NCBI GenBank assembly: GCA_007133195.1
Contig: SLNH01000025.1
Location: forward strand, 1 to 40,137
Source of the DNA: Nannocystineae bacterium
GTDB taxonomy: Bacteria > Myxococcota_A > Polyangia > Haliangiales > Haliangiaceae
Direction: 5' to 3'
DNA: 40,137 bases
The notes below the pieces were generated by a model. That model was given only the letters and a program-made list of their open reading frames with translations, ran no database searches and was not told the DNA's origin. Positions 3,056-26,718 of this stretch are shown piece after piece; position 1 is the stretch's first letter; every line of letters begins with the position of its first letter. Made by a program: the position numbers and the translations under genes.

Positions 3056-4120
3056 ATGCACGGGCTGCTCCTCATCAACCTCGGCACCCCCGACGAGCCC
3101 ACAAGCCCCGCGGTGCGGAGGTACCTGCGCCAATTCCTCTCCGATCCGCGCGTCATCGATATCCCCGCCGCGGCCCGCGCGGCGCTTTTGAACCTCGTCA
3201 TCCTCCCCCGCCGCCCGGCGCAAAGCGCCGCCGCGTACCGGAGCATCTGGACCGAGCGAGGCTCCCCCCTCCTGTTTCACAGCGAAGATCTGGCGGAGGC
3301 CGTGCGCGCCCGCCTCGGGTCCACGTGGCGCGTGGCGATCGGCATGCGCTACGGGAGCCCCTCGATCGCGAGCGCCCTGGACACGCTGTCGCGCGCGGGC
3401 TGCGAGCGCGTCGTCGTGTTTCCGCTTTATCCCCAGTACGCTTCGTCGTCCACGGGAACCGCGCTCGAGGTCGCCTACAGCGCCGCCGCGAGCTACTGGA
3501 ACGTGCCGAGCCTCACCTCCGTTCCACCGTTTTACGACCACCCCGGCTACATCCGGGCGTTTTCCGAACGGGGACGCCCCGTCATCGACGAGCGCGAGCC
3601 CGATCACGTGCTGTTTTCGTTCCACGGCCTCCCGGAGCGCCACCTCAAAAAGAGCGACGCGGCCAAGACCCGCTGCTTGCTCCGCCACGACTGCTGCGAG
3701 AGCATCACGGACGAAAACGCCTGGTGCTACCGCGCGCAGTGCTTCGCGACGGCGCGCCTTCTCGCCCAGGAGCTCTCGCTTCCAAACGATAAGTGGAGCG
3801 TGAGCTTTCAGTCCCGCTTGGGACGCACGCCGTGGATCCGCCCGTTCACAGACGAAGTGATCCCCGAGCTCGCAAAGCGCGGCAATCGGCGCGTCGTCGT
3901 GTTTTCGCCGGCGTTCGTCGCCGACTGCCTCGAGACCCTCGAGGAGATCGGAATCCGCGCCGTGGAGCTGTTTCGCGAAAGCGGCGGAGACGACCTCGCC
4001 CTCGTGCCTTCGCTGAACAGCACGCCTCCTTGGGCCGACGCAGTCGCGGACATGGCGCGCCGCGCGCTGCCGGCCGGCGATCAAGCCGGAGACGATCCCT
4101 CGCATAGGAGCACCGCATGA
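3056..4120 (+). CDS. hemH: Ferrochelatase
   Basis: Inserts ferrous iron into a porphyrin, the terminal metal-insertion step of heme synthesis. The 354-residue protein starts GLLLINLGTPD, has the active-site His in FSFHGLPERH (H190) and the C-terminal block VFSPAFVADCLETLEEIG with the conserved acidic residues. Directly after the active-site His is a cysteine-rich insertion, C207, C213, C214, C224 and C229, which the E. coli enzyme lacks. Internal four-cysteine [2Fe-2S] ferrochelatases are described in some proteobacteria, so a cluster here is plausible. The stop overlaps the next start by 4 bp (ATGA at 4117-4120), implying translational coupling. Confidence 0.96.
   Translation: MHGLLLINLGTPDEPTSPAVRRYLRQFLSDPRVIDIPAAARAALLNLVILPRRPAQSAAAYRSIWTERGSPLLFHSEDLAEAVRARLGSTWRVAIGMRYGSPSIASALDTLSRAGCERVVVFPLYPQYASSSTGTALEVAYSAAASYWNVPSLTSVPPFYDHPGYIRAFSERGRPVIDEREPDHVLFSFHGLPERHLKKSDAAKTRCLLRHDCCESITDENAWCYRAQCFATARLLAQELSLPNDKWSVSFQSRLGRTPWIRPFTDEVIPELAKRGNRRVVVFSPAFVADCLETLEEIGIRAVELFRESGGDDLALVPSLNSTPPWADAVADMARRALPAGDQAGDDPSHRSTA

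Positions 4121-14837: not shown

Positions 14838-14841
<4 letters not shown>
13762..14841 (+). CDS. Ser/Thr protein kinase (Hanks type), cytosolic
   Basis: Residues ~13-270 are a complete kinase domain: glycine loop [15 protein letters not shown]-type lysine in IALKIL (K42), helix-C glutamate near FLREG, catalytic loop HRDVKPSN (134-141), DFG (154-156) and [13 protein letters not shown]. All key catalytic residues are present, so it should be active. No transmembrane segment is visible; the last ~80 residues are Pro/Gly/Ser-rich and disordered. Such kinases are numerous in myxobacteria. The stop overlaps the deoC start (ATGA at 14838-14841). This could couple kinase and salvage-operon translation, but a TATAGT box just before deoC suggests a separate promoter as well. 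Confidence 0.93.
14821..14826 (+). promoter_or_regulatory. Candidate -10 box of the deoC operon
   Basis: TATAGT begins 17 nt before the deoC ATG, inside the 3' end of the kinase gene. It would give a leader of only a few bases. No good -35 is visible. Confidence 0.4.
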
Positions 14842-15776
<935 letters not shown>

Positions 15777-15786
15777 CGTTCATCCT

Positions 15787-17109
15787 ATGTCGACGAGCGC
15801 TCCGCTCTTTCAAGAGATCATCCGCAAAAAGCGCGACGCCGAGGAGCTGTCTCCCGGCGACATCCAGCGCTTCGTCGCCGGCGCGACCACCGGCTCGCTG
15901 CCCGACGAGCAGCTCGCCGCGATGCTGATGGCGGTGTTCTTGCGCGGCCTTTCCGACGCCGAGCTCGCGGCCCTCGCCGACGCCATGCTCCACTCCGGCG
16001 ACGTGCTCGACCTCCCCGGTGTCGATCGCCCCAAGGTGGACAAGCACTCCACGGGCGGCGTCGGCGACAAAATCTCGATCCCCCTCGCCCCGGCCGTGGC
16101 CGCCTGCGGCGCCGCCGTGCCGATGGTGTCGGGACGCGGCCTCGGACACACCGGGGGTACGCTCGACAAACTGGAGTCGATCCCGGGTTTTCGCGTCGAT
16201 CTCGACAGCGCGCGCTTCGCCGAGATCGTCTCTCGCGTGGGCACCTCGCTCATCGGGCAAACCGATCGGCTGGCCCCCGCGGATCGCCGGCTTTACGCGC
16301 TACGCGACGTCACGGCCACGGTCGAGTCGATCCCGCTCATCGCTTCGTCGATCATGTCCAAGAAATTGGCCGAGGGGATCGACGCGCTGGTGCTCGACTG
16401 CAAGGTGGGCGGCGGCGCGTTCATGAAGACCCGCGAGCGGGCCCGCCAGCTGAGCCGAGCGATCCAGGTCATCGGCCGATCGGCGGGCGTGGAGGTCCGA
16501 GCCGTGGTGACGGCGATGGACGCCCCCATTGGCCGCTACGTCGGAAACGCCACCGAGATCCTCGAGTCGGTGGAGGTCCTGCGCGGCGGGGGCCCCGCCG
16601 ATACCCGCGAGCTCACCGCGCGCCTCGGCGGCGAAATGCTGGCGATGGCCGGGGTCGCCGACAGCGCCGAGGACGGCACGGCGCGCATCGAGACCGCGCT
16701 CGATGAGGGCAGCGCCCTCGATGTGTTCCGGCGGCTCGTCGAGGCGCAGGGCGGCGATCCCCGCGTGGCCGACGCCCCGGCCGACGTCTTGCCGAAGGCG
16801 CGCGAGCGCACCCCGGTCTTGGCCGACCGGAGCGGGGTCGTAACAGACATCGGCGCGACGGAGGTGGGCCTCGCCGCGCTGTGTCTGGGCGCCGGGCGGC
16901 GCCGCAAAGAAGACAAAATCGACCCCGCCGTGGGCGTGGAGATCGTGCGCCGCGTCGGCGAACCCGTCGAGGCCGGTGAGCCGGTCGCGCACCTTCTCCA
17001 CAACGGCGATGGCGAGGAGGCGGCCCGCGAGCGACTCGCCGCCGCCATCCGCATCGCGGACGACGCGGAGGCATCCGCCGCCGGCTCGCGCATCCTCGAG
17101 GTGCTGTAA
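15787..17109 (+). CDS. deoA: Thymidine/pyrimidine-nucleoside phosphorylase
   Basis: Phosphorolyses pyrimidine (deoxy)nucleosides to base plus (deoxy)ribose-1-phosphate. The 440-residue protein has the phosphate-binding signature KHSTGGVGDKISIPLAP (from residue 86), SGRGLGHTGGTLDKLESIPG, SIMSKKLAEGIDALVLDCKVG and GAFMKT, all normal for the family. Whether it prefers thymidine (deoA) or is a broad pyrimidine enzyme (pdp) cannot be decided by eye. It follows deoC after 10 bp and its stop overlaps the punA start (TAATG), so the genes are one transcript. Its product, after mutase action not encoded here, feeds deoC. Confidence 0.95.
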   Translation: MSTSAPLFQEIIRKKRDAEELSPGDIQRFVAGATTGSLPDEQLAAMLMAVFLRGLSDAELAALADAMLHSGDVLDLPGVDRPKVDKHSTGGVGDKISIPLAPAVAACGAAVPMVSGRGLGHTGGTLDKLESIPGFRVDLDSARFAEIVSRVGTSLIGQTDRLAPADRRLYALRDVTATVESIPLIASSIMSKKLAEGIDALVLDCKVGGGAFMKTRERARQLSRAIQVIGRSAGVEVRAVVTAMDAPIGRYVGNATEILESVEVLRGGGPADTRELTARLGGEMLAMAGVADSAEDGTARIETALDEGSALDVFRRLVEAQGGDPRVADAPADVLPKARERTPVLADRSGVVTDIGATEVGLAALCLGAGRRRKEDKIDPAVGVEIVRRVGEPVEAGEPVAHLLHNGDGEEAARERLAAAIRIADDAEASAAGSRILEVL

Positions 17110-17966
17110 TGTCAAAACCAAGCGAAGGGCTCTACGAGCGCGTACAGGAGGCGGCGCGCGCGATACAGGATCGCGTCGGCGAAAGGCGCCCCACCACCGC
17201 GCTCATTCTCGGCAGCGGCTTGGGCGGGTACGCCGACCAGTTGCAGGACGCCGTGGCCATCCCCTACGAGGAAATCCCGCACATGCCGGTGTCTACGGTG
17301 ACCGGCCACGCGGGGAGGCTCGTCGTGGGCTGGCGCGGAAACCTGTGCTGCGCGGCCATGCAGGGACGAGTTCATTACTATGAAGGTCATCCGGCGCGAG
17401 AGGTCGCGTTCCCCGCGCGCGTTCTCGCCATGCTGGGCGCCGAAACCTTCATCATCACGAACGCGGCCGGTGGGATCGACCCCGGACTCGAGCCGGGGAC
17501 CCTGATGCTGATCCGCGATCATCTAAACCTCATCCCCGACAATCCGCTCCGCGGCGAAAACGACGAGCGCTTCGGACCGCGCTTTCCCGATATGACCCGC
17601 GCGTACGCGCCCCGCCTGCGCGCCCTCGGCCGCGACGCCGCCCACCGGCTCGGGCTCGACGTGGCCGAAGGCGTCTACGCGGGGCTCCCCGGGCCTTCTT
17701 ACGAAACACCGGCGGAGGTCGCCATGCTCGAGGCGCTCGGCGCCGACGCCGCCGGCATGTCCACCGTGCCCGAGACGATCGTCGCCAACCACATGGGGGC
17801 GGAGGTGCTCGGAATATCCTGCATCACCAACAAGGCGGCCGGCATCACGGGCGAGGCGCTGTCGCACGACGAGGTCACGGAGACCGCGGCGCGAGTGCGC
17901 GAGACCTTCGAAACGCTGCTCGGTACCGTGCTCACGTCCTTGGAGCGCGGGGATCGCAAGGGATGA
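17109..17966 (+). CDS. punA: Purine nucleoside phosphorylase (trimeric PNP type)
   Basis: Phosphorolyses purine nucleosides. It is 285 residues with ALILGSGLGGYADQL (phosphate loop), MQGRVHYYEGHPAREV, ITNAAGGIDPGLEPG, AGLPGPSYETPAEVAML and AGMSTVPETIVANHMGAEVLGISCITNKAAG, which carries the purine-binding residues. These mark the trimeric class specific for guanosine/inosine rather than hexameric DeoD. It overlaps deoA by 1 bp and cdd by 4 bp, giving strong evidence for an operon. Confidence 0.95.
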   Translation: MSKPSEGLYERVQEAARAIQDRVGERRPTTALILGSGLGGYADQLQDAVAIPYEEIPHMPVSTVTGHAGRLVVGWRGNLCCAAMQGRVHYYEGHPAREVAFPARVLAMLGAETFIITNAAGGIDPGLEPGTLMLIRDHLNLIPDNPLRGENDERFGPRFPDMTRAYAPRLRALGRDAAHRLGLDVAEGVYAGLPGPSYETPAEVAMLEALGADAAGMSTVPETIVANHMGAEVLGISCITNKAAGITGEALSHDEVTETAARVRETFETLLGTVLTSLERGDRKG

Positions 17967-18409
17967 GCGGCGGCGACGACACAGCCGACGCGGGCCAAAG
18001 CGATGGGGAAGACGCCCTCGCGCAGCGCGCGCTCGAGGCCAGAAAAAGCGCCTATGCGCCCTACTCCGGCTTCTCCGTCGGCGCGGCCGCTGTCGTGGAC
18101 GGCGTGACCTACCCCGGCGCGAACGTAGAAAATGCCTCGTACGGGGTGACGATCTGCGCCGAGCGCACCGCCATCGCGGCCGCCGTCACCGAAGGACAGC
18201 GCCGCCTCGAGGCCGTGGCGGTGGCGACCTCGTCGTCGCCGCCGGCCACCCCGTGCGGCATCTGCCTGCAGACGATGCTCGAGTTCGCCGAGGATCCGCG
18301 CGATGTGCGCGTCATCCTCGTCAATCCGTCCGGAGAGCGGCGCGCCCTATCGCTCGCCGACCTCATCCCCCACGGTTTCGTCTCCGCGTCGCTACCCGAA
18401 GGGAGCTAA
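17963..18409 (+). CDS. cdd: Cytidine deaminase
   Basis: Converts (deoxy)cytidine to (deoxy)uridine, feeding the pyrimidine phosphorylase two genes upstream. The 148-residue tetrameric-type enzyme has AYAPYSGFSVGAA, the catalytic CAE (C65, E67) within YGVTICAERTAI and the second zinc pair PCGIC (C98, C101). The first ~20 residues are an acidic, variable leader. The start overlaps punA by 4 bp; the next gene follows after 4 bp. Confidence 0.96.
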   Translation: MSGGDDTADAGQSDGEDALAQRALEARKSAYAPYSGFSVGAAAVVDGVTYPGANVENASYGVTICAERTAIAAAVTEGQRRLEAVAVATSSSPPATPCGICLQTMLEFAEDPRDVRVILVNPSGERRALSLADLIPHGFVSASLPEGS

Positions 18410-18413
18410 GCCA

Positions 18414-19751
18414 ATGGCCGAGGTGATCATTCGCGGCGGCACGATCGTCACGATGGATCCACAGTGGAGCCTCGAGACGGGCGACGTCGCGTGCCGCGAC
18501 GGGGAGCTCGTGCAGGTCGGGGGCCGCTACGTGCCGCAGGAGCACGAATACGAAATCTTGGACGCCGAGGGCTGCGCGGTCATTCCGGGGCTCGTGCAGT
18601 CACACGTCCACATGTGCCAGACCCTCGCCCGCGGCAGGGCAGACGATCTCGAGCTTTTGCCGTGGCTTCGTGATTTGGTTTGGCCCTATGAGGCGAGCCT
18701 CGAAGCCGTGGATATGGCCGCGTCGGTGAGGCTCGCGTGCGCCGAGCTCCTGCTCGGCGGCACCACCGCCGTGCTCGACATGGGCACAGTGCGGCACACA
18801 GGCGAGATCTTTGCCGCGGCGCAGGGCGCGGGCCTGCGAGCGACGAGCGGCAAGGTCATGATGGACGAGGCCACGCCCGACATCCCCATACCGCTACGCG
18901 AAGATACGCGCGCGTCCCTCGACGAGTCCCACCAGCTCCGCAAGGAGTGGCACGAGCGCGCCGCAGGGCGGCTGCGCTACGCATACGCGCCGCGCTTTGC
19001 GCTGTCGTGCACCCGCGACCTCCTCGAGGAAACGGCCCAGTCGGCGCGGGCTGCGGGCGTCCGCATTCACACCCACGCAAGCGAGAACCAAAGCGAGATC
19101 GCCGAGGTCGAGCGTCGGACGGGGCTTTCGAACATCGCATACCTAAACGAGGTCGGCCTCACCGGCGGGGACGTGTGCCTCGCGCACTGCGTCTGGGTGA
19201 CCGAAGCGGAGCGCGAGATCCTGCGCGAGACCGGCACGCACGTGTCCCACTGTCCGTCGTCGAACCTCAAGCTCGGGTCGGGGATCGCCGAGGTGCCGGA
19301 GCTCATGGAGGCCGGCGTGCCGCTCTCGCTCGGCGCCGACGGCGCCCCCTGCAACAACAACCTCGACGCGTTCGTCGAGATGCGCCTGGCCGCGCTCCTA
19401 CACAAACCGCGGCGTGGTCCGGCGAGCATGCGCGCCCCCCTCGTACTGCGGATGGCGACCCAGGGCGGCGCGCGCGCGCTCGGGCTCGGCGACCAGATCG
19501 GCTCGCTCGAGCCGGGCAAGCGCGGTGACGTGGCCGTGGTCGATCTTTCCACCGAACACGCGATCCCCGCCTCGAATCCCTATTCGGCGCTCGTCTACGC
19601 CGCGCGCGCCAGCGACGTGCGCCACACCGTCGTCGACGGCGAAGTCGTCGTGCGCGACCGGCACCTGCTCACCCTCGACCAAGCCGAGGTGGTGAGCGAG
19701 GCGCGCGCCCGCGCGCGCGAAGTATTCACCCGCGTCGGCCGCACCGCGTGA
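18414..19751 (+). CDS. Amidohydrolase, SAH/5'-deoxyadenosine deaminase-like (TrzN/AtzA subgroup)
   Basis: A 445-residue metal-dependent hydrolase. It has HVHMCQTLARGRADDLELLPWL (metal His64 and His66), a THASENQSEI block with the third metal His, LAHCVWVTEAE, and the catalytic Asp in LGADGAPCNNNLDAF. The C-terminus DVAVVDLSTEHAIPASNP closes the small beta domain. This subgroup includes S-adenosylhomocysteine, methylthioadenosine, 5'-deoxyadenosine and guanine deaminases. Its position at the end of a nucleoside operon favours a nucleoside or base deaminase; the exact substrate is inferred only as adenosine-like. ATG 18414 is the family-like start and lies 4 bp after cdd. Confidence 0.88.
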   Translation: MAEVIIRGGTIVTMDPQWSLETGDVACRDGELVQVGGRYVPQEHEYEILDAEGCAVIPGLVQSHVHMCQTLARGRADDLELLPWLRDLVWPYEASLEAVDMAASVRLACAELLLGGTTAVLDMGTVRHTGEIFAAAQGAGLRATSGKVMMDEATPDIPIPLREDTRASLDESHQLRKEWHERAAGRLRYAYAPRFALSCTRDLLEETAQSARAAGVRIHTHASENQSEIAEVERRTGLSNIAYLNEVGLTGGDVCLAHCVWVTEAEREILRETGTHVSHCPSSNLKLGSGIAEVPELMEAGVPLSLGADGAPCNNNLDAFVEMRLAALLHKPRRGPASMRAPLVLRMATQGGARALGLGDQIGSLEPGKRGDVAVVDLSTEHAIPASNPYSALVYAARASDVRHTVVDGEVVVRDRHLLTLDQAEVVSEARARAREVFTRVGRTA

Positions 19752-20999: not shown

Positions 21000-22166
21000 A
21001 TGGTACCTGCGTCGATCCTACCCCTGCTCGAGCCGCTCGAGACGTTCGAGGCGATCCGCCGGCGAGCGGCGCGCCTCGGCGACCGCCTGTGCGATCTGTC
21101 TTATGCCAATCCCTATGACGGCGCACAGCAGGGCGCGCGCGCGGCGCTGCGCGACGCGCTCGACGAAAGCCGGCTTCTCAGCCTGCAGTACACTCCTTTT
21201 GGCGGGCACACCGTCGCCCGGCGGGTCGTGGCCGACGACCTGCGGCGCAGCCACGGATTACCGTTCGCACATCGCGATGTGATCCTCACCCCCGGCGCCA
21301 TGTCGGCGCTGCAGATCGCGCTTCTGGCCGCGCACGCCCGAGGCGGCGAGGTCGTGGTTCCCACGCCGTGCTGGCTTGACTACCCCATCTACGCCCGCCA
21401 CGCCGGCGCCACACCGGTCATGGTGCCGCCGGATGGCGACGTGAAGCTCGACCCCCACGCGGTCGCCGCGGCAATCACCGAGCGCACCCGCGCGATCGTG
21501 CTCTCGCACCCCTGTAATCCCACCGGAGAGCGGTATCGCGATTCCACTTTGACACAGCTCGCGGAGGTCATCTCGGCGCGACAAGAGGCCCTCGGCACCG
21601 CCATTACCCTGATCGCTGACGAGACCCATCGGGACTTCACCCCGCCGGGCACCTACCAGAGCCTCAGCCGGCGCTTTTCCCGCGCGGTGATCGTCTACTC
21701 CTTCGGGAAATACCACTTCCTGCAGGGCCAGCGGCTCGGCTATGCCGCGGTTTCGCCGAACCATCCCGAGCGCGACGAAGTCGGCGCCGAGCTCGTTCGC
21801 TGGACCCGGATCGCAGGCGTGGCCACGCCCACGGCGCTCATGCAAAGCGCAATCCCGCGGCTTGTCGAGCTCACATACGATGACGCCTGGCTCGCGCGGC
21901 GGCGCGCGTGGCTCGTAGCCCGACTGCGGAGCGCCGGCTACCGCGTGGCTGAAACCGACGCCACGCTGTTCGTCTACGTGAAAACGCCGCGAGGCTGGTC
22001 CGACTGGGCGTTCACTCGAAGCCTCGCCTCGCGCGGCGTCCTCGTCCTGCCGGCCCCAGTCTTCCACCACAGTGGCTGGTTTCGTGTGGCGCTTACGGCC
22101 TCGGAGCCGATGATCGAACGTGCCCTCGAGGTGTTCGCACAGGAGGTAACTCAGTGCCCCGCATAG
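21000..22166 (+). CDS. PLP-dependent aminotransferase, class I/II fold
   Basis: A 388-residue fold-type-I enzyme. The PLP lysine is K237 in SFGKYHFLQGQRLGY, which lines up exactly with the usual 'SxSK.....G.R.GY'. Other PLP contacts are N173 in HPCNPTG and D207 in IADETH. The tyrosine that normally follows in 'DExY' is replaced by histidine (H210), which is unusual. The C-terminal FRVALTASEPMIERALE carries the carboxylate-binding Arg. Substrate is unknown. It opens a tight cluster: its last 13 bp overlap the asparagine-synthase-like gene. It probably supplies or modifies an amino acid for the downstream carrier-protein module; that is inference. Confidence 0.88.
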   Translation: MVPASILPLLEPLETFEAIRRRAARLGDRLCDLSYANPYDGAQQGARAALRDALDESRLLSLQYTPFGGHTVARRVVADDLRRSHGLPFAHRDVILTPGAMSALQIALLAAHARGGEVVVPTPCWLDYPIYARHAGATPVMVPPDGDVKLDPHAVAAAITERTRAIVLSHPCNPTGERYRDSTLTQLAEVISARQEALGTAITLIADETHRDFTPPGTYQSLSRRFSRAVIVYSFGKYHFLQGQRLGYAAVSPNHPERDEVGAELVRWTRIAGVATPTALMQSAIPRLVELTYDDAWLARRRAWLVARLRSAGYRVAETDATLFVYVKTPRGWSDWAFTRSLASRGVLVLPAPVFHHSGWFRVALTASEPMIERALEVFAQEVTQCPA

Positions 22167-23473
22167 AGCTTTTCGGCGAGTCCGATCCGGTGCTCGCCTG
22201 GGACGGAACCGCGATCTACGGTGACGAAGCCGCGCTCGCCGGCGAGCCGCCGCCAGCGCGGCTCGAGGGTTCGGCTGCGGCCGCGCAGCCGCTCGCCAGC
22301 GGACAGGTGCGCCTGTTTCGCGATCGGCTCGGCCTCGGCAAGCTGTTCTGGGCGAAAAACGCGGGCGGCGATCTCGCCTTCGCCTCGCAGCCGCTAAAGC
22401 TCGTGCGCGCGGGGTATGACCTCGGCGACATCGCGGCGGCTCCGCGGGGTCGCGTCATCACGCTCGACGCGGACGGTAGCCTCGCCTCGGTGAGCGCCCT
22501 TAAACCGGCAGGGCCCACGCCGGCCGTGAGCGCGAGCGTCGCGCAGATCGGCGCCCACATCCGAGAGGCGCTCGATGCCTACCTGGCGGCGGTGGCGACT
22601 GCCTACCCCGACAGGCGCGCGTATCTCTGCCTGTCGGGCGGTCTCGACAGCTCTACGATCGCCGTCTTGGCGCGCAGGCATTTCTCGGCGCTCACCGCGG
22701 TGAGCTTCGACATCGCGGACGCCGGCCGCGCGCCGAGCGCGGACCGACTCGCGGCTGAGCGGCTTTGCGCCGACCTCGGCGTGCCCATGATCGAGGCCAA
22801 CGTCACGACCGAAGAGCTCATTTCGTACCTGGACACCGTGCTCGTCGCCGGCATCGACTGGCGCGATTTCAACGTCCACTGCGGCCTGGTCAACGCCGCC
22901 ATCGCGGACGCGATCGCGCAAAGCTCGTCCGAAGGCGATCCGCCCCCGATCGTCATCACCGGCGATCTCCCAAACGAGCTCCTCGTCGATTACCAGCCCG
23001 AGGTCTACAAGGGCGCCACCTACTACGGGCTGCCGCGGGTCGACGTCGCGAAGCTGCGTTCGGTGCTCGTCGACGGGCTCGACACGTGCCACCGCGAAGT
23101 CGGCGTGTTCGGCGCCTTCGGTCTCTCGGTGGCGCAGCCCTACGCCGCCTGCGTCGACGCCTATCTCTCGCTCCCAGCGTCGCTGCTCGCCGAGCAGGAC
23201 CGCAAGGACCACTTGGTCACGAACATCGTGGGCTCGGAGCTGCCCGCCTACATCTACGAGCGCCCCAAGCTGCGCGCTCAAATCGGAGACACCCACGACA
23301 AGGGAACGCTCGCCGCCTGTATCGATCGGGGTATCGACGGATCGTGGCTCCGGGGCCGGTTCTCGGCGCTTCACGGCGTGGGTGAGGAACGCGCGCTCGA
23401 CCGCTTCATACGTGCCGGGCGCTACCAAACGGCGATGCCAACAGGCACCACCACGACGGAGGAAGATCAATGA
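22154..23473 (+). CDS. Asparagine-synthase-like ATP-dependent amide ligase with degenerate glutaminase domain
   Basis: Residues 161-167 (SGGLDSS) are the PP-loop of the asparagine synthase/beta-lactam synthetase family, followed by a synthase-like domain (VITGDLPNELLVDY, FGLSVAQPYAACVDAYLSLPA). The N-terminal part (1-115) still resembles a class II glutaminase (VRLFRDRLGLGKLFWA, DLAFASQPLKLVRAG) but is about half length, and the protein starts MPRIELF with no Cys at position 2. Glutamine therefore probably cannot be its nitrogen source. Loss of this Cys is the hallmark of beta-lactam synthetase-type enzymes, which adenylate a carboxylate for intramolecular or other amide formation. It overlaps both neighbours. 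Product unknown. Confidence 0.85.
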   Translation: MPRIELFGESDPVLAWDGTAIYGDEAALAGEPPPARLEGSAAAAQPLASGQVRLFRDRLGLGKLFWAKNAGGDLAFASQPLKLVRAGYDLGDIAAAPRGRVITLDADGSLASVSALKPAGPTPAVSASVAQIGAHIREALDAYLAAVATAYPDRRAYLCLSGGLDSSTIAVLARRHFSALTAVSFDIADAGRAPSADRLAAERLCADLGVPMIEANVTTEELISYLDTVLVAGIDWRDFNVHCGLVNAAIADAIAQSSSEGDPPPIVITGDLPNELLVDYQPEVYKGATYYGLPRVDVAKLRSVLVDGLDTCHREVGVFGAFGLSVAQPYAACVDAYLSLPASLLAEQDRKDHLVTNIVGSELPAYIYERPKLRAQIGDTHDKGTLAACIDRGIDGSWLRGRFSALHGVGEERALDRFIRAGRYQTAMPTGTTTTEEDQ

Positions 23474-23757
23474 ACACGTCCAATATCGCGCTCAAGCTCG
23501 AGTCGTTTACTCGCAAATCGTTTCAGATCGCCGATGACGATCCGGACTTTAGCCGCTCCGTCCATCTCTTCGAAGAGGGCTACGTCGACTCCATCGGCGT
23601 GATCGAGATGCTCACCTTCATCACCGAGACCTTCGGCGTGCAAATCCCCGACGACGCGCTCCAGTCCGACGGCTTCGCCACCATCGACGGGATGGCGCAG
23701 GTGATCGCCGAGCTCATGGCGCCGGCGGACGCCAAAGCCGCCGTCACCGCCTCCTAG
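23470..23757 (+). CDS. Acyl/aminoacyl carrier protein
   Basis: A 95-residue carrier protein. The phosphopantetheine attachment site is S41 in LFEEGYVDSIGVIEML, followed by helix III-like sequence ETFGVQIPDDAL and a C-terminal AQVIAELM. It has the DltC/aminoacyl-carrier style 'EGYVDSIG' rather than the housekeeping AcpP 'LGADSLD'. It overlaps the asparagine-synthase-like gene by 4 bp (ATGA) and is 10 bp before the next gene. No ketosynthase, acyltransferase or AMP-ligase is adjacent, so loading must come from the neighbour or from a gene elsewhere. Confidence 0.92.
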   Translation: MNTSNIALKLESFTRKSFQIADDDPDFSRSVHLFEEGYVDSIGVIEMLTFITETFGVQIPDDALQSDGFATIDGMAQVIAELMAPADAKAAVTAS

Positions 23758-23767
23758 GAAGCCGAAC

Positions 23768-24517
23768 ATGAGGGAGCTGGAAAAGGGGCTGCGAGCCCTG
23801 ATCGCCCGGGCGGCGCGGGGCGAGGTTTCGGAAATCGCCGCCGTGCTGCGTGCAGGCCTTTGGAGCGAGCGGCATTGGATCGTGCTGCGCCGGGATCTGA
23901 CCGAGGCACTCCAGGTCACCAAGCCTCCGGTGCCGTTTTCGATCCGCCGCTATCGCCCCGCCGACGCCGACGTTCTGTTCGACGAAGGCTCGCGGGCCGA
24001 GCGGCGGGAGCGCGCGCGGCGCGAGCGCTGGATGCGCAGAGGGCTGGGCCGGTGCTACGTCGCGTCGCTCGCGGACGGCACCGCGACGTTCATGCAGTGG
24101 CTGTGCACCCCGGAGGAAAACGCGGCGCTCCGCGAAAGCCTCCCGTTCGTCAAGCCGGCTGCGCTGCCCGGCGGCGTCGTTCTGGAAGGGGCCTATACCC
24201 CTCCGCGGTTCCGGCGCCTACCGATCATGCCGGCGGCGATGGCCCAAATCGCCGAGGAGGGCCGCCAGCTCGGCGCGCGCTTCGCCGTGGTCTATGTCGA
24301 GGAGCAAAACGCGTCGATGATCAGAGCCGCCAAGTTGGCCGGGTTTACCCCCTGGCGCACCCGGCGCGTGCGGCGCCGGCTGTTTTTGTCGCTCTTCAGT
24401 GAATCGGCGCTTACCAGCACGGCCGACGAGCTGGCGACGGGCTCGATGCGGCCACGGAGATCGGCCGCGGCGCAAGGGGCGAAACGGGCCCGCGAGCGCG
24501 CATCTGCATCCGCGTAA
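23768..24517 (+). CDS. GNAT-like N-acyltransferase family protein
   Basis: A 249-residue protein. Residues ~55-210 look like a GNAT fold: FSIRRYRPADADVLF, a central beta strand VVLEGAYTPPRFRRLPIMPAAM where the acyl-donor loop would lie, and ARFAVVYVEEQNASMIRAAKLAGFTPW, the typical 'N..s...a.k.GF' ending. The classic Q/RxxGxG/A loop is not clearly present. The C-terminal ~35 residues are Arg/Ala-rich. Because it follows a carrier protein by 10 bp, it may use an acyl-carrier thioester as donor, as some GNAT-fold enzymes do; that is inference. Confidence 0.72.
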   Translation: MRELEKGLRALIARAARGEVSEIAAVLRAGLWSERHWIVLRRDLTEALQVTKPPVPFSIRRYRPADADVLFDEGSRAERRERARRERWMRRGLGRCYVASLADGTATFMQWLCTPEENAALRESLPFVKPAALPGGVVLEGAYTPPRFRRLPIMPAAMAQIAEEGRQLGARFAVVYVEEQNASMIRAAKLAGFTPWRTRRVRRRLFLSLFSESALTSTADELATGSMRPRRSAAAQGAKRARERASASA

Positions 24518-24591
24518 GCGCGCACCGGGCGACACGACCGGCCTTTGGCGTTATGCTCCCGCCCGGGCTCGATTCGGTCCCGCGAGTGTCC

Positions 24592-25485
24592 ATGGCGTCG
24601 CTACCACAAGCTTCCACCGTGTCAGCCACCGGGCTCGGTTACCGCGCGGCGTTCGCGGAGGCGCTGCTGTCGATGCACGCCCCGCCGGTGCCGTGGCTGG
24701 AGATCCACCCCGAAAACTACATCCGGCGGGGCGGGCGCTACGCCCGGCTGTTCGATCGCGCTGCCGAGCGATTCCCTCTCGTGCCCCACGGGCTCACGAC
24801 CTGCTTCGGCAATCCAGAGCCGCCGGGCGCCGCCTGGCTGCGCGACCTGCGCGCGCTGTGCGAGCGCATCGGGGCGCCGTGGTTTAGCGACCACCTGTGC
24901 TTTAGCGCCGCCGGCGGCGCTCACGCCCACGATCTTCTCCCGGTTCCGCGGACGACCCAGATGGCCCGGGAGGTGGCCGACCGCATCTGCCGCACGCGAG
25001 ACGCGCTGGGGATCCCGGTGGCCGTCGAAAACGTAAGCTTCTACGGACATCCCCCGGGCTCCGAAGGCGCCTCGGACGCAGCCTTCATCACCGAGGTCGT
25101 CGAGCGCGCTGACGCCCTGCTCCTCCTCGACGTCAACAACGTCGTGGTAAACGCACGAAACTTCGGCTACGACGCGGGCGCCTACGTAGACGACCTCCCC
25201 CTCGAGCGCGTGGTGCAAATCCACATCGCCGGCCACACGCGCCGGAGCGACGGGCTGAGAATCGATACCCACGATCGCCCCGTCGACGCAGAGACCACCG
25301 CGCTGCTCGGCCGCGTCCTCGCCAAAACGGGTCGCGTCCCGGTGCTGCTCGAACGCGACGGCCGCTACCCTCCGCTCGAGGCGCTGCTTTCCGAGCTGGC
25401 CGACATTCAGGCTGTCGTGGACCGAGCGCTCCATGTCGACCAGGCCGAAACGCCGCCCCGGACGGGCGCCGACGCCGCGCGCTGA
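24592..25485 (+). CDS. MNIO (DUF692) multinuclear non-heme iron enzyme, MbnB/BufB-like
   Basis: A 297-residue TIM-barrel protein with every landmark of the DUF692 family: GLGYR, VPHGL (H66), WFSDHLCFS (D100, H101), HDLLPVP, VAVENVS (E146), LLLDVNNVVVNARN (D180, N183), QIHIAGH (H211), DTHDRPV and a final LERDG. These residues hold two or three iron ions. Known members (MbnB, TglH, bufferin BufB) oxidatively modify cysteine or other residues of ribosomal peptides together with a partner protein. ATG 24592 is chosen; an in-frame ATG at 24553 adds 13 residues. TATGCT at 24552-24557 may be a -10 box. The partner gene follows after 4 bp. Confidence 0.95.
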   Translation: MASLPQASTVSATGLGYRAAFAEALLSMHAPPVPWLEIHPENYIRRGGRYARLFDRAAERFPLVPHGLTTCFGNPEPPGAAWLRDLRALCERIGAPWFSDHLCFSAAGGAHAHDLLPVPRTTQMAREVADRICRTRDALGIPVAVENVSFYGHPPGSEGASDAAFITEVVERADALLLLDVNNVVVNARNFGYDAGAYVDDLPLERVVQIHIAGHTRRSDGLRIDTHDRPVDAETTALLGRVLAKTGRVPVLLERDGRYPPLEALLSELADIQAVVDRALHVDQAETPPRTGADAAR

Positions 25486-25489
25486 CCCC

Positions 25490-26233
25490 ATGGCACCTGC
25501 ACAGGACTTTCGCGACCAGCTCGTGCGCTACTGCTTCGCCGAGGCGCCCGATCCCGGGCTACTCGCCGATCTCGGCAAAGACGCCGAAGCGTGGCAGCTA
25601 TACCGGCGCATGATCCGCAATCGCATCTTCCGCTTCATAGCCGGCGCCCTGCCGCGCTATCGCCGCGCCGTCGGCGGCGAGCGGTTCGATGGGGATCTGG
25701 CCCGGTGGCTCGAAAGTGGCGGCAGCGCCGAGCGCCAGATGTTCCTCCTCCCGCTCGCGCACGCTCGCTGGCTGCTTGCGCACGGGCCCCCCGAGGAGCC
25801 CGCGTGGGCGGGCGATCTGCTGCGTTTGGAGGCGGCGCGCATCGAGGTCCGAAACGCCGACGATGTCGAGCCGGGTCCCCTCCGCCCGTTCGACTTTCAG
25901 CTTCCCCTCGCGGTCTGCGAGCCGATTCGGTGTCTCCAACCGGCCTGGGACGTGACCCGCAAGGAGCCGCACAGGCTGCCGTCGCTCCGGGTGCTCATCG
26001 TGTGGCGCGGTCCGAAGCGCACCGCGCGCACCGCGTGGGCGGAGCCTTGGGTCGGCGAGTGGCTGTGCGACGAGCGGGCGGCGTCGTGGCCTTCCCACGA
26101 CCTGATCCGAAACATCTGGCAAGCGCGCGGCGTGGTCCCCACCACCGAACGGATCGAGCACGCCGCGAGCGTCCTGGGCCCGCTCGTGGAGGCCGGCGCC
26201 GTGGCCAGCCCCGCCGCGGCCAAGTCCCGGTAG
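25490..26233 (+). CDS. DUF2063-type partner protein of the MNIO enzyme (BufC/MbnC-like role)
   Basis: A 247-residue protein. Residues ~5-95 match the DUF2063 N-terminal domain: FRDQLVRYCF, then WQLYRRMIRNRIFRFIAGALPRYRRAVGGERFDGD in pieces of the expected order, then a long helical/strand domain (PFDFQLPLAVCEPIRCL, SLRVLIVWR). Such proteins bind the precursor peptide leader and present it to the DUF692 enzyme. ATG 25490 is 4 bp after the MNIO stop, so the two are co-translated. The first 19 codons of the longer frame from 25433 overlap the MNIO gene and are rejected. Confidence 0.88.
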   Translation: MAPAQDFRDQLVRYCFAEAPDPGLLADLGKDAEAWQLYRRMIRNRIFRFIAGALPRYRRAVGGERFDGDLARWLESGGSAERQMFLLPLAHARWLLAHGPPEEPAWAGDLLRLEAARIEVRNADDVEPGPLRPFDFQLPLAVCEPIRCLQPAWDVTRKEPHRLPSLRVLIVWRGPKRTARTAWAEPWVGEWLCDERAASWPSHDLIRNIWQARGVVPTTERIEHAASVLGPLVEAGAVASPAAAKSR

Positions 26234-26349
26234 CCGGGGCCGGGCCCAAAAACCAACAGAGCGCGCTGTCGTTCTATGCCGCTGCGCCTTCGACACGGCG
26301 GGAGACCCTGTGAGAGCCTCGCCGGGCACGAACATCTGGATGACCTGCG

Positions 26350-26375
26350 CCCCGAACGGCCCTCGCGGCCCGGGG
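26350..26375 (+). other. Hairpin in the spacer upstream of the acidic precursor gene
   Basis: CCCCG/CGGGG (5 bp) encloses GGCC/GGCC (4 bp) with a 3-nt bulge and the loop CTCGC, 43 nt before the next ATG. It could protect or process a separate precursor mRNA, or attenuate transcription between the enzyme genes and the precursor. There is no T-tract. Confidence 0.3.
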
Positions 26376-26418
26376 AGAAGCAGCGTCCCGCGCGACTCAC
26401 CATTGGAGGTCTACACGC

Positions 26419-26718
26419 ATGAAGACGCCCTCGACCAGTAAACGCCTGATGCTATCCGCCGCAACCGCCTTCGGCATGTCGATCGGTGCGGCCGGCGTCG
26501 CCGGGTGCGGCGGCGCCGAAGACGCCGCCGAAGAGCCCGAAGAGCCGGCCATCGAAGAGCAGGACTGCGCCGGTGAAGCCGATTGCAGCGCCGCAGCCGA
26601 CGACATCGACGCGGACTACGCCGACGAAGCCGACTGCAGCGGCGAAGCCGACGATGAGGCCGCCGCGGACGACGAGGAAGCCGACTGCGGCGCGGACTGC
26701 GCCGGCGCAGACGAGTAG
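26419..26718 (+). CDS. Acidic Cys-containing lipoprotein, probable MNIO-RiPP precursor
   Basis: 99 residues. The N-terminus has Lys/Arg, a hydrophobic stretch and a perfect lipobox, GVAGC (C30), so signal peptidase II processing and lipidation are predicted. The mature part is almost only Asp, Glu, Ala, Gly and Cys, with cysteines at 50, 56, 73, 90 and 94 in a recurring (A/Q)DC-x-GEAD-like context. This fits a substrate for the adjacent MNIO/DUF2063 pair, as bufferin precursors are small secreted Cys proteins beside the same enzyme types. A strong Shine-Dalgarno (GGAGGT, 8 bp before ATG) suggests high expression. The role as precursor is inferred from position and composition; metal binding is a reasonable guess. 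Confidence 0.8.
   Translation: MKTPSTSKRLMLSAATAFGMSIGAAGVAGCGGAEDAAEEPEEPAIEEQDCAGEADCSAAADDIDADYADEADCSGEADDEAAADDEEADCGADCAGADE

Follow-up and report, generated by a model that had tools for sequence, protein, structure and literature searches.

What is made by the four adjacent genes at positions 21,000–24,517 of a contig from a Nannocystineae bacterium (assembly GCA_007133195.1, contig SLNH01000025.1, forward strand)? The window analyzed here is the entire contig, 40,137 bases from a host genome of 5.6 Mb. Three of the four genes encode a fold-type-I pyridoxal-phosphate (PLP) aminotransferase (AT), a glutaminase-less amide ligase resembling asparagine synthetase and β-lactam synthetase (ASN), and a stand-alone phosphopantetheine carrier protein (ACP), and this AT-ASN-ACP core is real and conserved. 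The reading that we favor, with a probability of roughly 45%, is that the window holds a degenerate copy of an AMP-ligase, AT, ASN, ACP cassette making an unusual amino-acid-derived acyl thioester, which would then be passed to an amine.

The four open reading frames (ORFs) lie on the forward strand. AT (21,000–22,166) is a class I/II aminotransferase (Aminotran_1_2, E = 5e-38; nearest NCBIfam family PRK06836), ASN (22,154–23,473, GTG start) matches Asn_synthase (E = 1e-14), ACP (23,470–23,757) matches PP-binding (E = 2e-6), and the fourth ORF (23,768–24,517), which lies outside the conserved core, encodes a putative GNAT-family acyltransferase. AT and ASN overlap by 13 bp and ASN and ACP by 4 bp (ATGA), a 10-bp gap separates ACP from the GNAT gene, and GGAGG-type ribosome sites precede ASN and ACP. 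A first-pass annotation of this DNA had placed all four ORFs, their overlaps and the gap correctly, and its view that they form a coupled unit is supported. No equivalog match was found in NCBIfam for any of the four. The end of the operon at 24,517 is uncertain because the next ORF begins at 24,553, 35 bp past the GNAT gene, and the operon may extend beyond that point.

How widespread is this arrangement? A search with the single ASN protein yielded few relatives and a Kitasatospora plasmid, and an alignment-based scan of genome contigs yielded 30 loci; adding the plasmid and L060, from a Myxococcota genome of complete assembly level, brought the ASN loci compared outside the window to 32. 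Duplicates were merged before counting (L006 = L015, L007 = L035, L061 = L031, L062 = L026), and L004/L008, a weak match (1e-6) over 215 aa only, with neither AT nor ACP found, was excluded. The AMP-ligase, AT, ASN, and ACP genes follow one another in this order and on one strand in 24 of the 32 loci, counting L022 and L027, where the ligase is cut by the contig end, and L036, where ASN is internally deleted. ACP, which comes after ASN in the full cassettes, is present in 30. On the Kitasatospora plasmid, the order is AMP-binding protein, aminotransferase, ASN, ACP. The full cassette was found in about seven phyla (Actinomycetota, Gemmatimonadota, Myxococcota, Acidobacteriota, Planctomycetota, Rokubacteria, and Proteobacteria), its named carriers including Streptomyces canus, Sulfidibacter corallicola, and Acanthopleuribacter pedis. 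The same AT, ASN, and ACP stand colinear on one strand in the window (21,000–23,757). Hence, the core of the four-gene order proposed at first pass recurs across genomes, but that exact set is not conserved as a unit: the conserved fourth member is the AMP-ligase, not the GNAT.

Of 289 genomes sampled from the window's class, 5 carry a cassette-type AT, and a clear score gap (at least 493 versus at most 315 bits) sets these apart. The AT and ASN distances are correlated (r = 0.86, 0 of 2000 permutations), which fits genes traveling together, although shared ancestry contributes to this value. No relatives were found in viral contigs, and a viral origin was rejected on that basis. A second arrangement was seen at L013, L014, L029, L035, and L037, where ASN and ACP accompany a full-length AsnB, with no cassette ligase or aminotransferase.

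The next question is what kind of ligase ASN might be. Its AF2 model (predicted local distance difference test, pLDDT, 89.8) resembles AsnB, human ASNS, β-lactam synthetase (BLS), and CarA roughly equally, at Z about 25–28 (27–28 for AsnB/ASNS, with 27.6 to 1ct9; 26–27 for BLS; 25–26 for CarA). The model aligns to Escherichia coli AsnB only from residue 41 onward, so the region of the glutaminase Cys is absent rather than mutated, and the GATase_7 match covers only positions 72–121 of the 123 in the profile. The enzyme had been called Cys-less at first pass, and this description holds, as ASN lacks a complete class II glutaminase domain with an N-terminal Cys nucleophile and combines, like BLS, an Asn-synthetase fold with the loss of a working glutaminase. 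The synthetase domain and the SGGxDS ATP motif of the AsnB family are present, and the score against TIGR01536 is 49.4 bits, below the cut-off of 267.1. In 29 sequences, the SGGxDS loop (S161-G-G-x-D165-S166), K372, the TGD271xxN274E275 motif, and DxRxFNxH are invariant. In the profile alignment, TGDxxNE falls over SGEGSDE of human ASNS, with Asp271 over the corresponding Glu, and K372 falls over ASNS K466. The invariant Asp271 thus occupies the position of AsnB Glu348, and no Tyr of a Y348-E382 pair is found there; in BLS, a Tyr takes this place. Sequence and fold therefore support the chemical class assigned to ASN earlier, ATP-driven formation of an amide by an enzyme with no glutaminase domain.

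The two partners of ASN also keep their key residues. The PLP-binding Lys237, the pyridine-binding Asp207, Trp125, Tyr64, and Arg362, a carboxylate-binding-type residue at the usual α-carboxylate position of aminotransferases, are invariant in 22 cassette ATs, and the window AT is 57–61% identical to those of L009–L012. In ACP, G37, D40, and S41 are invariant in 26 carriers and the DS(x)G phosphopantetheine site is kept. The earlier suggestion of work on a carrier protein is supported. Judged by their residues, AT, ASN, and ACP all look active.

Why, then, is no ligase found beside them? The usual fourth member of the cassette resembles TIGR03098 (exosortase-A-associated acyl-CoA ligase), against which the cassette ligases score 462–600 bits, that of L006 passing the cut-off (599.6 versus 592.35). 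With two cassette ligases as tblastn queries, nothing convincing was found in the window, directly upstream of AT or elsewhere, and a ligase remnant was thereby rejected. The window ASN clusters with copies from Nitriliruptorales and Acidimicrobiia (support 96/92 and 96/93). As it nests among these ligase-bearing copies, the absence is most likely a secondary loss in the window lineage, and what the first-pass annotation took as a defining feature of the set would be a derived one. L013 and L014, which keep ASN and ACP but neither ligase nor AT, indicate that a ligase-less state can persist. The best ligase match in the same genome is on contig C204 (429 bits versus 261 for the next one), in a locus (L063, 5,286–12,404) that encodes a polysaccharide deacetylase, an NAD-synthase-like protein (PRK00876), a full-length AsnB, the TIGR03098-like ligase, an ACP, and a 347-aa protein of no family. 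For loading of the window ACP in trans, this ligase is the best candidate. With rare exceptions, D-Y-G-(L/C)-N-Q and MYGL(T/S)EAFRS are common to the cassette ligases, motifs too uncertainly aligned to a characterized adenylation (A) domain to name a substrate.

The loss of the ligase from a clade that mostly has it could also mean that the window copy is decaying or no longer works, a remnant with unrelated acquired neighbors and no product. In AT (71% identical) and ACP, the nearest copy is L036 from Pseudaminobacter soli, and it is itself broken: its ASN (3,392–4,029) has suffered an internal deletion and a frameshift, with ligase, AT, and ACP left intact. Moreover, seven genomes of the family have the same conserved nucleoside-salvage genes but, downstream of them, neither the cassette nor the MNIO locus that follows it here, making this stretch lineage-specific. 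However, the three core ORFs of the window are intact, with their overlaps, ribosome sites, and every invariant residue, their G+C content at third codon positions (0.82–0.88) is similar to that of host genes, and the ligase-less L013 and L014 have also retained ASN and ACP. We consider a remnant improbable.

The nucleoside-salvage run of the window (14,838–19,751, + strand) encodes deoxyribose-phosphate aldolase, thymidine phosphorylase, purine nucleoside phosphorylase, cytidine deaminase, and 5′-deoxyadenosine deaminase, in an order partly conserved in the family genomes.

To what might the acyl group be transferred? Many of the loci belong to clusters for glycans or amino sugars that include N-deacetylases. 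At the glycan loci L018, L020, and L030, a full-length AsnB is accompanied by deacetylases, glycosyltransferases, or flippases. At L029, ASN-ACP is surrounded by NeuB, a PIG-L deacetylase, a hexapeptide transferase (preceding ASN), and a cytidylyltransferase, in a nonulosonic-acid (sialic-acid-like) cluster. Actinobacterial copies neighbor Gfo/Idh, DegT-type, HAD, and polysaccharide-deacetylase genes, a set reminiscent of kanosamine biosynthesis; those of Kitasatospora, S. canus, and Virgisporangium have the Gfo, DegT-type, and polysaccharide-deacetylase genes. About 14 of the 32 loci have acyltransferases nearby, from unrelated families of the GNAT or hexapeptide type: a hexapeptide acyltransferase directly follows ACP at L016, L021, L023, L031, and L060, and GNAT-type proteins of two unrelated families stand beside or near the cassette at L010, L013, L014, L018, L019, L020, L022, and L038. 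The recurrence of genes for removing an acetyl group and adding a different acyl group points to an acyl donor as the product of the cassette, the role that we propose from these deacetylase and acyltransferase contexts.

The GNAT assignment of the fourth gene of the window is weak. Its Acetyltransf_1 match (E = 0.014) falls below the Pfam cut-off, and its single-sequence fold (pLDDT 41) is unusable; support comes from 30% identity (E = 2e-9) to a protein annotated as N-acetyltransferase. No convincing homolog was found in 144 relatives or in 377 sampled Myxococcota genomes, nor adjoining the other cassette copies, and the GNAT was therefore rejected as a conserved partner; its best plasmid relative adjoins respiratory genes. 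The GNAT is a lineage-specific neighbor. As unrelated acyltransferases accompany many other copies, it is still a fair analog. The acyl transfer suggested at first pass can accordingly be kept as a prediction drawn from the acyltransferases beside many copies, but not with the GNAT as a conserved member.

The same neighborhoods bear on the main rival, in which a free small molecule, a lactam or a dipeptide-like antibiotic or signal, would be released from ACP, with the GNAT serving as a self-resistance or capping acetyltransferase and no glycan involved. The actinobacterial copies lie in clusters resembling those of natural products (kanosamine-like Gfo/DegT/HAD genes, an ABC transporter, a phosphotransferase), L034 and L035 have neighbors resembling nonribosomal peptide synthetases (NRPSs), and no glycan genes are near the window cassette. 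On the other hand, genes for polysaccharides or sugar acids surround the rokubacterial, L030, and L029 copies, and neither a thioesterase nor an exporter recurs across all copies. This alternative seems possible but doubtful to us. In the window itself, no A or condensation (C) domain that would indicate an NRPS was found near the cassette, whose carrier is free, and the AMP-ligase, ketosynthase, and condensation domain reported missing at first pass did not turn up there either.

Downstream, the window encodes on the + strand (24,553–26,718) an MNIO maturase (HvfB/BufB-like), a DUF2063/HvfC-like protein, and a peptide of 99 aa that contains six Cys and a lipobox-like AGC. This is a bufferin/HvfA-like locus for a ribosomally synthesized and post-translationally modified peptide. 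The Asn-synthetase fold serves peptide cyclization in lasso peptides, and ASN might conceivably act as a lasso- or macrolactam-type cyclase on this peptide, as the MNIO ORF begins so close to the GNAT gene. However, no MNIO or DUF2063 gene was found among the scanned neighbors of the other copies, and tblastn with the proteins of this locus found none in L005–L038. Such loci also normally work without a cyclase, and ACP would be left unexplained. We regard this explanation as very unlikely.

An acyl thioester passed to an amine thus remains our preferred reading, and the cassette might operate in four steps, of which the substrates, order, acceptor, and product are predictions. First, AT, given its family and intact active site, would make or consume an α-amino acid by transamination. 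Second, the adenylating ligase, normally encoded just upstream and here presumably acting in trans, would load the acid on Ser41 of ACP. Third, ASN would adenylate a carboxylate and, with no need for glutamine, join it to an amine; this would either close a lactam on the bound substrate, as in BLS, or attach a second acid through an amide bond. Fourth, a neighboring acyltransferase would move the acyl group to an amine, which at many loci is probably an amino sugar, de-N-acetylated beforehand, in a glycan or natural product; the window candidate is the GNAT at 23,768.

Several points weigh against this scheme. The window copy has no ligase, no adjacent glycan genes, and a weakly assigned GNAT, and it could be decaying, given the broken ASN of its closest AT and ACP relative. 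The link to glycans comes from neighborhoods in other organisms, and no obvious acyltransferase adjoins L009, L011, L012, or L036. Finally, since the carboxylate-type Arg is kept, AT may use free amino acids and be tied only loosely to ACP.

More tentatively still, we suggest that the cassette represents an uncharacterized pathway, in which a glutaminase-less ASN with the TGDxxNE motif in its active site turns an amino acid bound to the carrier into an amide or lactam. The result would be a new class of acyl donor, used in several phyla to N-acylate amino sugars or natural products. In the literature searched, as the first-pass annotation had supposed, no description of the cassette was found; biosynthetic-cluster databases were not covered, so "undescribed" is provisional. 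If correct, this would add an Asn-synthetase-fold amide ligase acting with a carrier protein to known chemistry, and the cassette could account for unusual N-acyl groups found on bacterial glycans and serve as a new signature in genome mining.

How does the cassette compare with known systems? ASN shares with AsnB and ASNS the fold, the ATP site, and the PF00733 match, but it lacks the Cys nucleophile and the N-terminal glutaminase region, and the Glu of SGEG is replaced by the invariant Asp271. With BLS and CarA it has in common the fold, the ATP PP-loop, the lack of a working glutaminase, a Lys at the catalytic-Lys position, and glutamine-free amide formation; it differs from them in lacking about the first 40 residues of the N-terminal nucleophile (Ntn) domain, in its TGDxxNE motif, and in its ties to a carrier, a PLP aminotransferase, and an AMP-ligase.

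Among stand-alone carriers, ACP resembles those of cispentacin biosynthesis (AmcB) and of D-alanylation (DltC), below the cut-off. In the DltA/DltC system, the carrier is loaded by a stand-alone adenylating ligase, a principle that the cassette would share. We know of no stand-alone carrier system that combines a fold-type-I aminotransferase with a glutaminase-less Asn-synthetase-like ligase. The cispentacin pathway uses type II PKS-like enzymes (PMC10698177), and an Asn-synthase-like hydrazine transferase, Afn14, is mentioned in a review as part of a different kind of pathway (PMC11705231).

The exosortase-A exopolysaccharide loci (TIGR03098 AMP-ligase, ACP, TIGR03108 AsnB, DUF3473 deacetylase) share with the cassette its TIGR03098-like ligases, and at L018, L020, and L030 the cassette occurs together with genes for a full-length AsnB, a deacetylase, and glycan functions; the C204 locus of the same genome follows the same logic. 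The window cassette differs from these loci in having an aminotransferase and a short ASN and in lacking the ligase, and no exosortase, deacetylase, or glycan genes were found among the window neighbors scanned. Its parts belong to known families, and their combination is, to our knowledge, an uncharacterized variant of carrier-protein-based acyl activation.

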